Shown one piece after another: positions 60,002-64,000 of a stretch of DNA of 64,000 bases (position 1 is its first letter; each line of letters opens with the position of its first letter). This DNA comes from Thermococcus eurythermalis (GTDB taxonomy: Archaea > Methanobacteriota_B > Thermococci > Thermococcales > Thermococcaceae). The notes below the pieces were generated by a model. The model was given only the letters and a program-made list of their open reading frames with translations. It made no database searches and was not told where the DNA came from. The DNA lies in the NCBI RefSeq assembly GCF_000769655.1, contig NZ_CP008887.1, positions 744,001-808,000 on the forward strand. Reading direction: 5' to 3'. Both the position numbers and the translations under genes were made by a program.

Positions 60002-60031
60002 CCCCTCTTCTTTTCCTTTCCGGTGGTCGGC

Positions 60032-60445
60032 ATGAAAAAGAGGGAGTGGCTTGTTGTCCCGGACACTAACTTCCTCCTCATCCCCGGCCAGTTTGGGGTC
60101 GACATAGTTTCCGAGCTCAACAGAATCCTCGACGTGAAGTTTAAAATCGTCGTCCCAAACGTGGTTCTCGAAGAGCTCGACGTCATCGAGAAAAAGACGC
60201 GAGGAAAGGATTTGCTCGCGGTCAGGATGGCGAAGAAATTAGTGGAGAGGTTTGAGAAGGTTGAAATTGGAAAGTTCGGCGAGAGGCCGATAGACGACCA
60301 GATTTACGACTTCGCGGTCAAAAACGAGCGCGTTATTGTCTGCACCAACGACAAGGGGCTGAAGAAGCGCCTCCGCGAGAAGGGCATCCCCGTCGTCTAC
60401 CTCCGCTCGAAGAAGATACTTGAGCTTGAAGGAATGCTGGAGTAG
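60032..60445 (+). CDS. PIN-domain protein, FCF1/UTP24-like
   Basis: 137 residues. VVPDTNFLL (Asp11), EELDVIEKKTRG, and VCTNDKGLKKRLREKGIPVV give the acidic PIN site. The relation is to ribosome-biogenesis nucleases (FCF1/UTP24, rRNA processing) rather than VapC toxins: no antitoxin is present and it follows aIF2-gamma. ATG 60032 follows GGTGGT. Confidence 0.88.
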   Translation: MKKREWLVVPDTNFLLIPGQFGVDIVSELNRILDVKFKIVVPNVVLEELDVIEKKTRGKDLLAVRMAKKLVERFEKVEIGKFGERPIDDQIYDFAVKNERVIVCTNDKGLKKRLREKGIPVVYLRSKKILELEGMLE

Positions 60446-60478
60446 TTAGGGCTTTTATCGGCTCAATGTTGCGGTGCT

Positions 60479-60661
60479 TTATCTCGAGCATTGTTCATTT
60501 AGTTTCAACTCCTCCGCAACTTTAAGGTAAAGCTCTATAGTCTTTTTAATGTTCCTTAGAACTTCTTTTTTAGCCCCCTGACTCACGCATCCCGGCAGGT
60601 TGGGACGTAGGCAATATAACTGCTCCCCGGCTGGTTCAAAGATAACCCAAAATTTCACCAT
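60479..60661 (-). CDS. Orphan HicB-like (UPF0150) protein
   Basis: 60 residues: MVKFWVIFEPAGEQLYCLRP and NLPGCVSQGAKKEVLRNIKKTIELYL, the HicB partial-RNase-H fold. HicB normally neutralises the HicA toxin, but no HicA is visible beside it, so it is a solitary member. Its promoter TTTATAG (minus, about 60686) marks the edge of the AT-rich block. Confidence 0.82.
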   Translation of the reverse strand: MVKFWVIFEPAGEQLYCLRPNLPGCVSQGAKKEVLRNIKKTIELYLKVAEELKLNEQCSR

Positions 60662-60768
60662 TGTCCCCCAATACTCAACTTGTGGGCTATAAATTTAAGC
60701 CGATTCCATAGTTGTGCATAAACTATAATCCCTGTCCAAGGTAACCATCGGATCTTAATTATAAATTT

Positions 60769-60815
60769 AAACTTATTGTTGGAAACTTATTGTTTAAAAA
60801 AAGCTTAAATTATAA
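60769..60815 (+). promoter_or_regulatory. RiPP-locus promoter with tandem direct repeats
   Basis: Two perfect copies of AAACTTATTGTT (60769-60780, 60783-60794) with a 14-bp period lie just upstream of the TATA region CTTAAATTATAA (60804-60815). The RNA should start near 60832-60840, followed by GGAGGG and the precursor ATG. Direct repeats at this position suit a regulator. The rest of 60662-60859 is AT-rich and gene-free. Confidence 0.5.
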
Positions 60816-60859
60816 TCAAATTCAAAGCACTGATGGAAAAATCTATAGGAGGGAGCACC

Positions 60860-60958
60860 ATGGAATATCTACCACCTGTAGGGGGAGATATTGGGGTTCC
60901 AGCAGATACGTTTGTTGGAGTTAATGATGTGTTTGGAGTTAACTATGGGCTATATTAA
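60860..60958 (+). CDS. Putative RiPP precursor peptide (short frame)
   Basis: 32 residues, MEYLPPVGGDIGVPADTF then VGVNDVFGVNYGLY-stop, behind a strong GGAGGG site 6 nt from the ATG. It is Gly/Val-rich, acidic, and has no cysteine. It precedes a radical SAM gene, a PqqD-like gene and an ABC transporter, the normal position of a modified-peptide precursor. The frame continues one base off for 43 more codons, so the full peptide may be about 75 residues. Not a member of any precursor family I know. Confidence 0.6.
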   Translation: MEYLPPVGGDIGVPADTFVGVNDVFGVNYGLY

Positions 60959-61086
60959 ATGCCGTTGGATACGCGTATGCTGCGGTAGTCTGGGTAGCGG
61001 TGGGCGCTATATTAGTGGCCGTTGAGGTAGTTAAGGAAATCTTTGAGCTTTATGACCCCAGAAAGCTCGGTGTGAAGGAGGTTTAA
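60943..61086 (+). pseudogene. Out-of-frame continuation of precursor, membrane-helix peptide
   Basis: A frame one base off (-1) from the precursor reads LNAVGYAYAAVVWVAVGAIL, then VAVEVVKEIFELYDPRKLGV-KEV-stop. It has no ATG/RBS of its own; the only in-frame start is a GTG at 61000. A single-base indel, or ribosomal slippage at 60950-60958, would join the two into one peptide with an amphipathic/hydrophobic helix typical of bacteriocin-like cores. Alternatively it is a separate small immunity peptide. Confidence 0.45.
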
Positions 61087-61091
61087 AACCT

Positions 61092-62249
61092 ATGGAAACA
61101 TTACCCTACCTTAATGATCTTTACGTGGCCAGTGATGGATTACTTCAGATATTTCTAAAAAATTTAAAAGAGCCTCTTAGGACTGCTCAACTTCCAGGTT
61201 TCCTTGAAAAATGGGACAAGTATGTAAAAGCGAGAAGAGCACTTAAATCTTGGCTTGATGGGATAAAAGGTCCCGTATTCGCTGCAATCGACCTAACATA
61301 CAAGTGTAATCTTAAATGTCCATACTGCTATGTAGCTGCTCCGTTGAGAAAATCTGCTCCAGAACTGCCAACTGAAATTGTCCTGAGAGCGATTGATGAA
61401 CTTGCAAAATTGGAAACTCTCGGGATATGTTTGTGCGGTGGGGAACCTGTCTTACACAGAGAATTCTTTAGAATCATAGAATATGCAAATGATGCAGGTA
61501 TTCCAGTTAATTTTGTGACTAATGGTACCTTAATCACTGAAGAATTTGCTAAAAAGCTCTCTGAGTTAAATATTGGAAGTGTGCAGGTTTCGTTGGATGG
61601 ATCAAAACCGGAAATCATGGACAGACTAAGGGGAAATGGAATATTTCACAGAGCAGTTGATTCAATAAAAAGACTCATAGACTATGGGATAAATACATCT
61701 GTTGCATTTTGTGCAACTCGTATTAACATCCAAGACTTTCCCAATGTAGTTGAGTTGGCATCAAAATTGGGAGTGTTTGAAGTTAGATCTATGTACTTTG
61801 TTCCTGAGACTGAGGCACATATCAAACTAGCTCCTTCAGAAAGCCAATACAAAGAGTTATTGCAGTGGATCTACGATAACAGAGAGGACTTCACAATAAA
61901 AGTTGACTTCGGTGACCCAACAGAGCATATAATCCTTGGGCCATATATTAATTCTGTCGTCATAACAATAAGTGCTGAAGGATACATTCTCCCTACCCCC
62001 TACCTGAACTTTGCATATGGGCATGTAACTGATGGGATTGAAGCTCTCTGGCCCGAACTTAGGGAGGCTTGGAAACAGAATCCAGTCCTATTAACAGTAT
62101 CCTCATATTTAAAGACGGAGAAAGACTTTGTGAAATTAAATAACGTTGGATTGACTCGAAAAAATGGGAGGGGGTATATAGATTTGAGTAGAATTTCCAC
62201 AGATCAACAGTTAGAGCTTTCTAGAAAAATAAGGAGCGTGTTAATATGA
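61092..62249 (+). CDS. Radical SAM peptide-modifying enzyme, Cys-less SPASM-like tail
   Basis: 385 residues. Cys72-x3-Cys76-x2-Cys79 (CNLKCPYC) binds the SAM cluster; GGEP is at 116-119 and VTNGTLI at 142-148. The C-terminal EGYILPTPYLNFAYGHVTDG (296-315) has the SPASM/twitch sequence pattern, but the expected cysteines are replaced, so auxiliary clusters are probably absent. Residues 1-60 form a helical N-terminal extension. GGAGG lies 11 nt upstream. It is expected to modify the upstream peptide; the reaction is unknown. Confidence 0.85.
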   Translation: METLPYLNDLYVASDGLLQIFLKNLKEPLRTAQLPGFLEKWDKYVKARRALKSWLDGIKGPVFAAIDLTYKCNLKCPYCYVAAPLRKSAPELPTEIVLRAIDELAKLETLGICLCGGEPVLHREFFRIIEYANDAGIPVNFVTNGTLITEEFAKKLSELNIGSVQVSLDGSKPEIMDRLRGNGIFHRAVDSIKRLIDYGINTSVAFCATRINIQDFPNVVELASKLGVFEVRSMYFVPETEAHIKLAPSESQYKELLQWIYDNREDFTIKVDFGDPTEHIILGPYINSVVITISAEGYILPTPYLNFAYGHVTDGIEALWPELREAWKQNPVLLTVSSYLKTEKDFVKLNNVGLTRKNGRGYIDLSRISTDQQLELSRKIRSVLI

Positions 62250-62665
62250 AAGAGGAAGAGATCTATGTGGATCCACAAATTGTGAAAAATATAGCAGAGA
62301 CGCTAAAAAACATCCAAAAAATGAAAGTAAAACAAGACAAAAGAGTAAAATGGAGAAGAGAAAATGACGGACGGATTATAACATTCAATCCAATTACTGG
62401 GAAAATATGTGTAATGAATCCAACTCTCGCCGAAATATACGTTATGACCAAAAATCCCAAGGGGTGTACCTTCGAGACTTTAATAAGGGCCCTCAAGCAG
62501 AGATTCCCCACTATCGATGAAAAACAGCTGAGGAGTGATACCCTAAGGGCAGTGACATGGCTTTTCATAAATGGATTTGTTTACCTTGAAGATACCAGCA
62601 AGAAGATACATATAGTGGATGTTATTATGGAGGTCTCCAATCAGAAGAGGGGGCTGCGCCAATGA
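62246..62665 (+). CDS. PqqD-like RiPP recognition element protein
   Basis: 139 residues. Residues ~35-125 follow the PqqD/RRE pattern: KRVKWRRENDGRIITFNP, then NPTLAEIYVMTKNPKGCTFE, then LRAVTWLFINGFVYLED. Such winged-helix-like domains bind leader peptides and present them to the radical SAM enzyme. A long basic N-terminal helix (1-35) is added. ATGA overlap with the radical SAM gene argues for stoichiometric expression. Confidence 0.8.
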   Translation: MKEEEIYVDPQIVKNIAETLKNIQKMKVKQDKRVKWRRENDGRIITFNPITGKICVMNPTLAEIYVMTKNPKGCTFETLIRALKQRFPTIDEKQLRSDTLRAVTWLFINGFVYLEDTSKKIHIVDVIMEVSNQKRGLRQ

Positions 62666-63144
62666 AGGCTTCAAGACTCGTGACGATGATAGTTCTAGGT
62701 ACCTGTCTTTTCTTCATTGTAGGAATTCTCATAATTTTGAATGGGGGCCTTTCGGCTTTGGATCTTCCGCTTTTTGTAGCGTTAATAGTACTGGTGCTTT
62801 GGATGTTAAAAGTTGTTGTTTCGTGTCCCCTATCTGTTAATGTCTTAGACGAGCATAATATTGTAATTAAGACCTTGCTCGGAAACAAGAAGGTAAGGGC
62901 CTCTAAAATGGACGTTGTCGATGTAAATGCATTCCTCATCGAAAGGACATACGGAGTTGGTATAGACACTAAGGACATCAAAGTTGGAACCTTCAGGACA
63001 GTAAGGGGAGATAACGTCTGGGCATGTTGTGTTGGTACAAAGGGGGTGCTTATTGAAACAAACAACGGCAAAAAGATACTGGTGGGGCTTGATGAGGTGA
63101 GAGGTACAATAAGCCTTCGGGGGCATGTGTATGACAAAGGTTAA
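62662..63144 (+). CDS. Two-helix membrane protein with PH-like domain
   Basis: 160 residues: membrane helices at about 8-27 and 34-51, then a beta domain (IVIKTLLGNKKVRASKMDVV; GVLIETNNGKKILVGLDEVR) resembling bacterial PH domains. ATGA overlap with the PqqD-like gene and a 14-20 bp overlap with the permease gene. Candidates: immunity protein, or accessory factor of the exporter. Confidence 0.72.
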   Translation: MKASRLVTMIVLGTCLFFIVGILIILNGGLSALDLPLFVALIVLVLWMLKVVVSCPLSVNVLDEHNIVIKTLLGNKKVRASKMDVVDVNAFLIERTYGVGIDTKDIKVGTFRTVRGDNVWACCVGTKGVLIETNNGKKILVGLDEVRGTISLRGHVYDKG

Positions 63145-63937
63145 AACAGTAATATCAAAAGAGTTCTGGACATATTTTGGAAGCAGAGAGACCCTTTACT
63201 CTATTATTCTTCCCGCGGTTTCAATGGTATTTGTGCTGAGCTTTGTAATTGTTACTAGATCACAGTATATCACGCCTCAATCAAGGGCCCTTGCATACAA
63301 ACAGATAACTTCCAATCCCCAGCTGTTTGGAATAACAGAAAGCCTGCTTCAAGTTCTGGGGGACGACGCTATAACAATTGCCACCCTCATAGTCCAGATA
63401 CCAATGGTTATCCAGATATTTTCGTTTATTTCGACATATAACGCTATAGTGGCATCCTTTGCTTTCGAAAGGATAAATAAGACAATGGAAGTACTTTTCG
63501 CTTCTCCCTTAAGTGAGAGTGAGATAATCCTAGGAAAGATCATCGCAAGTATCATTGCTGGAACCCTCACAATGCTATCAGGGATTTTAATTAATGTTGC
63601 CGCAATCCAGTATGTTTTCATACAACATGTGGGAAGGTTATGGACGCCTACACTGGGCTATATGTTTTTGACGGTCGCTATGTCAATATCAATGCTTCTT
63701 TTTGCTATACCTATTGGCCTCACCCTTAGTGTGAGGGCTAAAAACGCAACTCAGATTAAGCTGGGGGGATTAGTCGGTATTATGCCATTATTGCTCTTTT
63801 TATTGGCAAGTAAGGTTCCACCGCAGACGTTTTTTTCCATTGTGCAGATAATTGGGCTAACCAGCCTGGTAGTTTCAATAATCCTGGTGTGCTTGTCTAG
63901 AAGGCTCATAAATCGCTTTTCATTCATAATAAACTAA
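63131..63937 (+). CDS. ABC-2 type transporter permease
   Basis: 268 residues with six membrane helices (near 20-40, 85-105, 130-152, 165-190, 197-217, 225-250) and the ABC-2 loop EVLFASPLSESEIILGKIIAS. I favour the ATG 63131 (GGGGG 8 nt upstream); an ATG two codons earlier is possible. It should export the modified peptide or confer self-protection with the ATPase that follows. Confidence 0.85.
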   Translation: MTKVKTVISKEFWTYFGSRETLYSIILPAVSMVFVLSFVIVTRSQYITPQSRALAYKQITSNPQLFGITESLLQVLGDDAITIATLIVQIPMVIQIFSFISTYNAIVASFAFERINKTMEVLFASPLSESEIILGKIIASIIAGTLTMLSGILINVAAIQYVFIQHVGRLWTPTLGYMFLTVAMSISMLLFAIPIGLTLSVRAKNATQIKLGGLVGIMPLLLFLLASKVPPQTFFSIVQIIGLTSLVVSIILVCLSRRLINRFSFIIN

Positions 63938-63948
63938 AGGTGGTTCCT

Positions 63949-64000
63949 ATGCTCGAAGTTGAAAATATCTCTGCAGGCTATGGGAAGGAGAATGTAATAA
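63949..64000 (+). CDS. ABC transporter ATPase, N-terminal fragment
   Basis: Only 17 codons lie in the window: MLEVENISAGYGKENVI, the first strand of an ABC ATPase before the Walker A motif. GGTGGTTCCT precedes the ATG, 11 nt after the permease gene. The gene continues past the right edge. Confidence 0.85.
   Translation, partial: MLEVENISAGYGKENVI

Follow-up and report, generated by a model that had tools for sequence, protein, structure and literature searches.

A probable cassette for a radical SAM-modified peptide in Thermococcus eurythermalis, with a frameshifted precursor gene

Overview

The stretch of DNA considered here, the window, comprises 64,000 nucleotides of Thermococcus eurythermalis contig NZ_CP008887.1 (G000:C1:744001-808000, where G000 is the genome; other genomes and loci carry G and L labels, and L002 is the extended locus from G000). 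At its right-hand end lies an operon for a small precursor peptide, a radical S-adenosylmethionine (SAM) enzyme, a PqqD-like protein, a PH-like membrane protein and an ATP-binding cassette (ABC) transporter. An original prediction, made from the letters of the window, took this to be a pathway for a ribosomally synthesised and post-translationally modified peptide (RiPP), a reading that is supported by the precursors, by a structure model resembling a RiPP recognition element (RRE) and by the maturase type of the enzyme. The encoded precursor, with a conserved leader and a variable core, stands beside the enzyme, albeit frameshifted in the window itself. It appears probable that the operon is a horizontally spread cassette for a hydrophobic, membrane-active archaeocin, probably modified by redox-neutral chemistry such as epimerisation.

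In the mechanism proposed, the stand-alone RRE would bind a YxxP-type leader at the N-terminus of the precursor and present the precursor to the radical SAM enzyme, which would edit a Val/Ala/Ile/Trp-rich core by means that involve neither Cys chemistry nor auxiliary Fe-S clusters. The most likely edit would be redox-neutral hydrogen-atom chemistry such as L-to-D epimerisation, for which the putative hydrogen donor is Cys113 (or Cys115), a conserved residue next to the SAM-binding GGE loop. The ABC-2 permease and ATPase, together with the PH-like membrane protein, would provide for product export or self-protection, the product probably being an archaeocin that is hydrophobic and inserts into membranes, much like the sporulation delaying protein (SDP) or the epipeptides.

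Precursor peptides

The family is present in nine of 94 Thermococcaceae genomes, that of the window included, with intact operons in G093, G055, G077, G080 and G067, decayed copies in G020 (where enzyme and ATPase are frameshifted) and G016, and a copy in G081 that is cut by a contig end. The complete co-linear gene set is found in the five genomes with intact operons and in locus L043. A conserved short peptide, such as the original prediction had proposed looking for, lies upstream in every intact homologous locus. The Thermococcales loci with an intact 5' end hold one or two precursors each, usually two, and these share a design in which a leader, M-[SE]-Y-[VLI]-P-P-x-G, precedes a Cys-free core rich in Val, Ala, Ile and Trp; in the alignment the leaders are better conserved than the cores. 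In G093, G055, G077 and G080 a type A precursor, with the leader Y[IL]PP[VI]GEDLGH followed by SVVVEVGGPG and MPVLFV[IV]IWSLPLKDKTSGGE, sits just upstream of type B, to which the precursor of the window belongs, while L043 and G067 have a second precursor of another sort. Cys is missing from every Thermococcales precursor listed, and the earlier argument that a Cys-free precursor excludes sactipeptide thioethers therefore holds.

The short peptide frame of the original prediction is a real frame of 32 residues (MEYLPPVGGDIGVPADTFVGVNDVFGVNYGLY), but it is merely the front of a 75-residue precursor. The homologous precursor in G093, whose radical SAM enzyme is 64% identical to that of the window, runs uninterrupted for 87 residues (MSYVPPVGGDVG...AILNLVGYAYAAVVWAAAAW...VKEIFDSYDIRK...), and the sequence of the window aligns with it in frame 0 as far as Gly30 (codon 30) and from there on in the -1 frame. 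Over the 15 codons of the AILN...VVW block of the shifted frame, 4 are identical to G093, 10 differ synonymously and one differs non-synonymously; because the differences are almost all synonymous, selection at the protein level appears to have acted on the -1 frame. On this alignment the gene is split by a one-base frameshift, due either to loss of a base or to a sequencing error. Since the other five genes are still intact, the event would be recent, if it is not a sequencing error, and, unless the base was misread, a normal product is probably not made from the window copy.

Could the gene nevertheless be functional as it is? This would hold if the 32-residue peptide were the real product, if a programmed -1 shift joined the frames, or if the missing base were a sequencing error, possibilities that together seem rather doubtful. 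The intact remainder of the operon is as expected of a working system, and an error is possible at a short G run and would restore an intact gene. The 32-residue product and the programmed shift have against them that the homologous precursors are all read through in one frame and that the shifted frame bears the mark of coding selection; moreover, inspection revealed no classical slippery heptamer, and programmed frameshifting was rejected.

The maturase and its chemistry

The radical SAM protein recognised in the original prediction has its domain confirmed by Pfam (E 3.9e-27). It carries the CX3CX2C motif at C72, C76 and C79 within a TIM-barrel-type fold, together with a CxCGGE motif (C113, C115), a DPxxH motif (D275-H279) and a SPASM-like tail without cluster cysteines. 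In a nine-row family alignment the only invariant Cys residues beyond C72, C76 and C79 are C113 and C115; the DPxxH motif is also invariant at D, P and H. Within a wider set of members C113 is present in 17/17 and C115 in 15/17, the two together occurring in none of 201 control radical SAM proteins, where the controls, here and below, are looser matches from the same searches and hence no random sample. The C-terminal region contains 0-3 unconserved Cys in members and at least seven in 179 of the 201 controls.

The AlphaFold2 model (pLDDT 87) finds its nearest solved folds among peptide maturases, with SkfB as the top match, then SuiB and PqqE. The best NCBIfam radical SAM score, 128.5 bits for mycofactocin, compares with an equivalog cut-off of 265, and that for pyrroloquinoline quinone (PQQ) is 96.4 against 381 bits. 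A cofactor, tRNA or heme radical SAM family was rejected because all NCBIfam matches fall far under their cut-offs, and the protein thus lies outside the known tRNA and cofactor families that the original prediction had set against its own reading. For the first enzyme of the bacterial relatives (L046, L047, L048 and L219) no NCBIfam equivalog reaches its cut-off either. Judged by sequence and model, the enzyme is related to the peptide maturases and has lost the clusters of the SPASM region; it belongs, by sequence comparison, to a distinct subfamily common to other archaea and Bacillota. That it modifies a peptide is very likely.

C-C cyclases and thioether maturases are reported to require their auxiliary clusters, and proteusin epimerases operate with one cluster plus a critical Cys (PMC8326336). 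Because the SPASM clusters are lost and a Cys is conserved, as in proteusin epimerases, redox-neutral chemistry such as epimerisation is the most economical reading, with C113, present in all members, as the candidate hydrogen donor. Epimerisation rather than some other chemistry is put forward tentatively, by analogy, as possible more than probable.

The recognition element and the leader motif

The model of the PqqD-like protein (pLDDT 86.2) consists of three strands followed by three helices, and its best match in the PDB is the complex of the lasso RRE TbiB1 with its leader (5v1v; TM 0.80 by target). A homologue, L045, scores above the Pfam PqqD cut-off, so that structure model and homologues together point to an RRE partner with predicted leader binding. 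The motif [YW]xxPx[LVIFA] is bound by lasso-type RREs (PMC13381572), YxxP being also described as a lasso RRE-binding motif (PMC12710340); an RRE resembling TbiB1 fits the YxxP-type leader of the precursors. The full motif is matched in the Bathyarchaeota locus L045 (WITPVL) and in G163 (YVTPTL), and the Bacillota relatives have YEKPVV, YESPTI, YVTPSI, YVKPTV and FQAPQI; leaders of [YW]xxP form thus extend over the archaeal and most of the bacterial relatives, with the FxxP form in L047. By hand count a YxxP-type leader with a Val/Ala-rich core accompanies 15/20 member loci, as against 0/67 control radical SAM loci from the same search; the automatic scan gave 17 member hits, two of which, in the window and in L221, are fragments of membrane proteins and do not enter the hand count. 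A wider control scan, over 89 loci on either strand, turned up 8 chance hits, dissimilar to these, in 1.75 million strand-bases. It is highly probable that the RRE protein binds the leader.

Transport, protection and presumed activity

A homologue of the PH-like protein, L034, scores 20.9 bits against bPH_5, just under the cut-off of 22.5, and in the Bacillota cluster L216 the precursor has a bPH_5 membrane protein next to it. SdpI-family proteins occur in the archaeal sister cluster L215 (E 4.8e-13) and the bacterial L219 (E 1.1e-15), and a DUF1648 protein in the sister cluster L220; such neighbours fit immunity against a membrane-active peptide. The ABC pair YydIJ of the epipeptide operon has been postulated to act in export or protection (PMC7026026) and, by analogy, the pair encoded here may act in product export or in self-protection, a role in one or the other being likely. 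The cores, from their sequences, look like membrane-inserting segments, and the patchy presence and decay of the family fit a bacteriocin-like trait. A membrane toxin is the somewhat favoured product.

A broken permease in G077 and G080 was considered and dismissed, since tblastn shows the gene to be intact. A divergently transcribed ABC-2 permease, absent from the window, lies upstream of the precursors in L033 3980-5777 and L037 5007-5828 (reverse complement), accompanied in L033 by an ATPase, and is a possible extra immunity or export unit. Beside the decayed copy of G016 (L039 9399-13075, reverse complement) a different radical SAM protein, of 550 residues, is encoded together with a membrane protein and an ABC ATPase; these genes may make up another peptide cluster, unrelated to the first.

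Phylogeny and bacterial relatives

In the maturase tree the archaeal (eight rows) and bacterial (nine rows) proteins form separate groups, with support of 98/96 and 99/99, and the enzyme of the window groups with that of G093 (93/89). The family is thus common to both domains, and the Thermococcales copies are of archaeal stock. On these two supported groups recent transfer from Bacillota was rejected; recent transfer seems to have taken place within the archaea. L043, which is binned as Thermotogota, is a 4.4-kb contig that stands beside G067 in the tree and may be mis-binned. Radical SAM matches in the class of G115 (E ~1e-56 to 1e-62) cover mainly the N-terminus and, being generic, were not counted as members. 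In the Bacillota loci L048, L216, L217, L218 and L093 a second radical SAM protein and a larger protein with a PqqD-like part are encoded next to the Val/Ala-rich precursor, some of these loci adding a small extra protein.

Comparison with known systems

The epipeptide operon of Bacillus subtilis (yydFGHIJ, or epeXEPAB) shares with the present one a precursor modified without thioethers, a radical SAM maturase and an ABC permease and ATPase, and its product depolarises membranes (PMC7026026). However, EpeE has a second [4Fe-4S] cluster and is partnered by a membrane protease, both of which are missing here, whereas here the RRE stands alone; there is no EpeE/YydG membership at the level of sequence. 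The sactipeptide operons for sporulation killing factor (SKF) and subtilosin (SkfB, AlbA) also combine a radical SAM maturase with ABC transporter genes, but their thioethers need core Cys, while the Thermococcales precursors have none and the SPASM region lacks the auxiliary-cluster cysteines. With the SDP (SdpC/SdpI) cannibalism system the likeness lies in the logic of a hydrophobic membrane-active peptide, and in the SdpI-family proteins of L215 and L219. SdpC maturation proceeds without a radical SAM enzyme. Proteusin epimerases of the PoyD and OspD type are alike in their one radical SAM cluster, critical extra Cys and hydrophobic Val/Ile-containing cores (PMC8326336); unlike the present system they carry the RRE C-terminally in the same chain and act on other leader types, where here there are a separate RRE gene and a YxxP leader. 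The lasso RRE B1 (TbiB1) and the LPP RRE (LppB) resemble the present protein in being discrete and in the [YW]xxP leader motif (PMC13381572), but here there is no cyclase and no leader peptidase, the chemistry differs and Gly occupies the sixth position of the motif. Membership was rejected for sactipeptides on the Cys-free cores, for spliceotides because YG of the X-Y-G motif is not conserved among the precursors, and for lasso peptides because open reading frames for an Asn-synthetase-like cyclase and a B2 protease were not seen in the operons.

The open-access literature searched, which covers the field in part, yielded no description of a radical SAM RiPP in Thermococcales, and earlier notice is possible. 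To our knowledge, few archaeal peptide antibiotics are known. For testing, the cluster offers a leader motif, an RRE encoded on its own, and a maturase that is probably stable to heat and has a single Fe-S cluster and a Cys as candidate hydrogen donor. Precursors of like design are found in the bacterial sister clade, so that a bacterium could serve as the host in which to work out the chemistry. A wider proposal, which we regard as rather unlikely, is that these systems form a radical SAM RiPP class across archaea and Bacillota (CxCGGE/DPxxH maturases minus SPASM clusters, with YxxP leaders). The enzymes of such a class would place D-residues at positions along Val/Ala/Trp cores, yielding membrane-active peptides of gramicidin or SDP type, and hyperthermophilic archaea would possess in it a natural antimicrobial system.

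Weighing the alternatives

The same cassette might instead introduce C-C or C-O cross-links, or another oxidative change, at a core Trp or Tyr, after the logic of streptide, triceptides or SkfB. The closest solved folds are indeed of such maturases, and the cores retain Trp or Tyr amid Val and Ala; what makes this fairly unlikely is that the auxiliary-cluster cysteines reported as essential in such maturases are lacking from the family and that the core shows no invariant motif for a cross-link. A peptide-derived redox cofactor or small molecule, as in PQQ or mycofactocin, would account for the PqqD-type partner and for mycofactocin as the best radical SAM score, yet that score is far under the cut-off, the precursor cores are strongly divergent and of two kinds per locus, the operon holds an ABC transporter, and the distribution is patchy with decay, all of which leave such a pathway very improbable. 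A secreted signal in place of a toxin, for which the lack of an obvious lytic module could be cited, is improbable given that no regulator or receptor gene is seen in the operon, that SdpI-type immunity families occur in related clusters and that the composition of the cores suits membrane insertion.

The preferred reading, a hydrophobic archaeocin altered by redox-neutral chemistry, has its own difficulties. The precursor gene is broken in the very genome under study, and neither a protease nor a dedicated regulator was seen in the operon. C115 is not strictly conserved, and the epimerase EpeE, at rank 48, resembles the maturase in fold only distantly. The Thermococcales leaders, YxPPxG, have Gly where the canonical YxxPx[LVI] has a hydrophobic residue, and the fold match of the RRE has a modest E of 2.6e-3. 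The PqqD-like and PH-like proteins of the window match no Pfam family, although the labels given to them in the original prediction find support through L045 and L034. Homology of the precursor to SdpC was rejected, two precursors matching the SdpC HMM at insignificant E values of 0.033 and 0.56.

Layout of the locus

As originally described, the genes form an operon of co-directional open reading frames in an A+T-rich block, with G+C of 0.395-0.414 across 61-64 kb as against ~0.50-0.60 in nearly all the remaining window, and a ribosome-binding site, GGAGGG, lies immediately 5' of the ATG at 60860 (Table 1). Reading frames overlap by the four bases ATGA at 62246-62249 and 62662-62665; a further, longer overlap spans 63125-63144. 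The ABC-2 permease domains are recognised by Pfam, and the ATPase begun at the window edge is completed beyond it.

Table 1. Features of the inserted block (window positions)
Feature	Position	Strand	Remarks
Left end of inserted block	60446..60769		starts directly after PIN-domain gene stop
A+T-rich promoter region, TATA-like TTATAAATTTAAA	near 60760		within 60446..60769
Precursor 5' part, in frame: leader MEYLPPVGGDIG, then VPADTFVGVNDVFGVNYG	60860..60958	+	32 residues, ends at TAA past frameshift
Precursor 3' part, -1 frame: AILNAVGYAYAAVVWVAVGAILVAVEVVKEIFELYDPRKLGVKEV, hydrophobic core and tail	60949..61086	+	aligned to 87-residue G093 precursor
Radical SAM peptide maturase, 385 residues	61092..62249	+	Pfam, alignment, AlphaFold2 model, fold search, tree
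Predicted stand-alone RRE (PqqD-like), 139 residues	62246..62665	+	AlphaFold2 model, fold match, homologue L045
PH-like membrane protein, hydrophobic N-terminal segments	62662..63144	+	bPH_5 via homologue L034; candidate immunity/accessory protein
ABC-2 type permease, 270 residues	63125..63937	+	Pfam ABC-2 membrane families above cut-off; kept in all intact operons
ABC transporter ATPase, start only	63949..64000	+	full gene ~300 residues in L002, to L002:8852 = window position 64851

Insertion site and mobility

The inserted block runs from 60446 to ~64850, past the window end, over 4.4 kb at 40% GC, and in G000 sits exactly between a PIN-domain gene (60023-60445) and an HD-domain gene, which are close neighbours without an insert in many Thermococcus genomes. 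Homology to these relatives ends at the PIN stop codon and picks up again near L002:8871-8896. Other, unrelated inserts of ~2-4 kb occupy the same site in G020, G032 and G018, and by sequence comparison the PIN/HD interval is a hotspot for variable insertion. The family's operons in other genomes do not lie beside PIN/HD genes. Empty sites in relatives, differing locations elsewhere and G+C content all agree with the horizontal gain first proposed. Carriage of the family by viruses or plasmids was rejected, since viral contigs held no relative and plasmid matches were to generic radical SAM proteins only.

The inserts in the PIN/HD interval of three near relatives (L167, L168 and L169) code for hypothetical proteins, some of them secreted or membrane-bound. 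The left part of the block contains a HicB-like open reading frame of 60 residues on the minus strand (60479-60661; Pfam E 0.047, below cut-off); no HicA partner was seen, and the frame is possibly the remnant of an older toxin-antitoxin insert. The genome also has a small plasmid, G000:C2 (L166), of 3629 bases, which over 87% of its length shares 81% identity with the Thermococcus nautili plasmid NC_009658.

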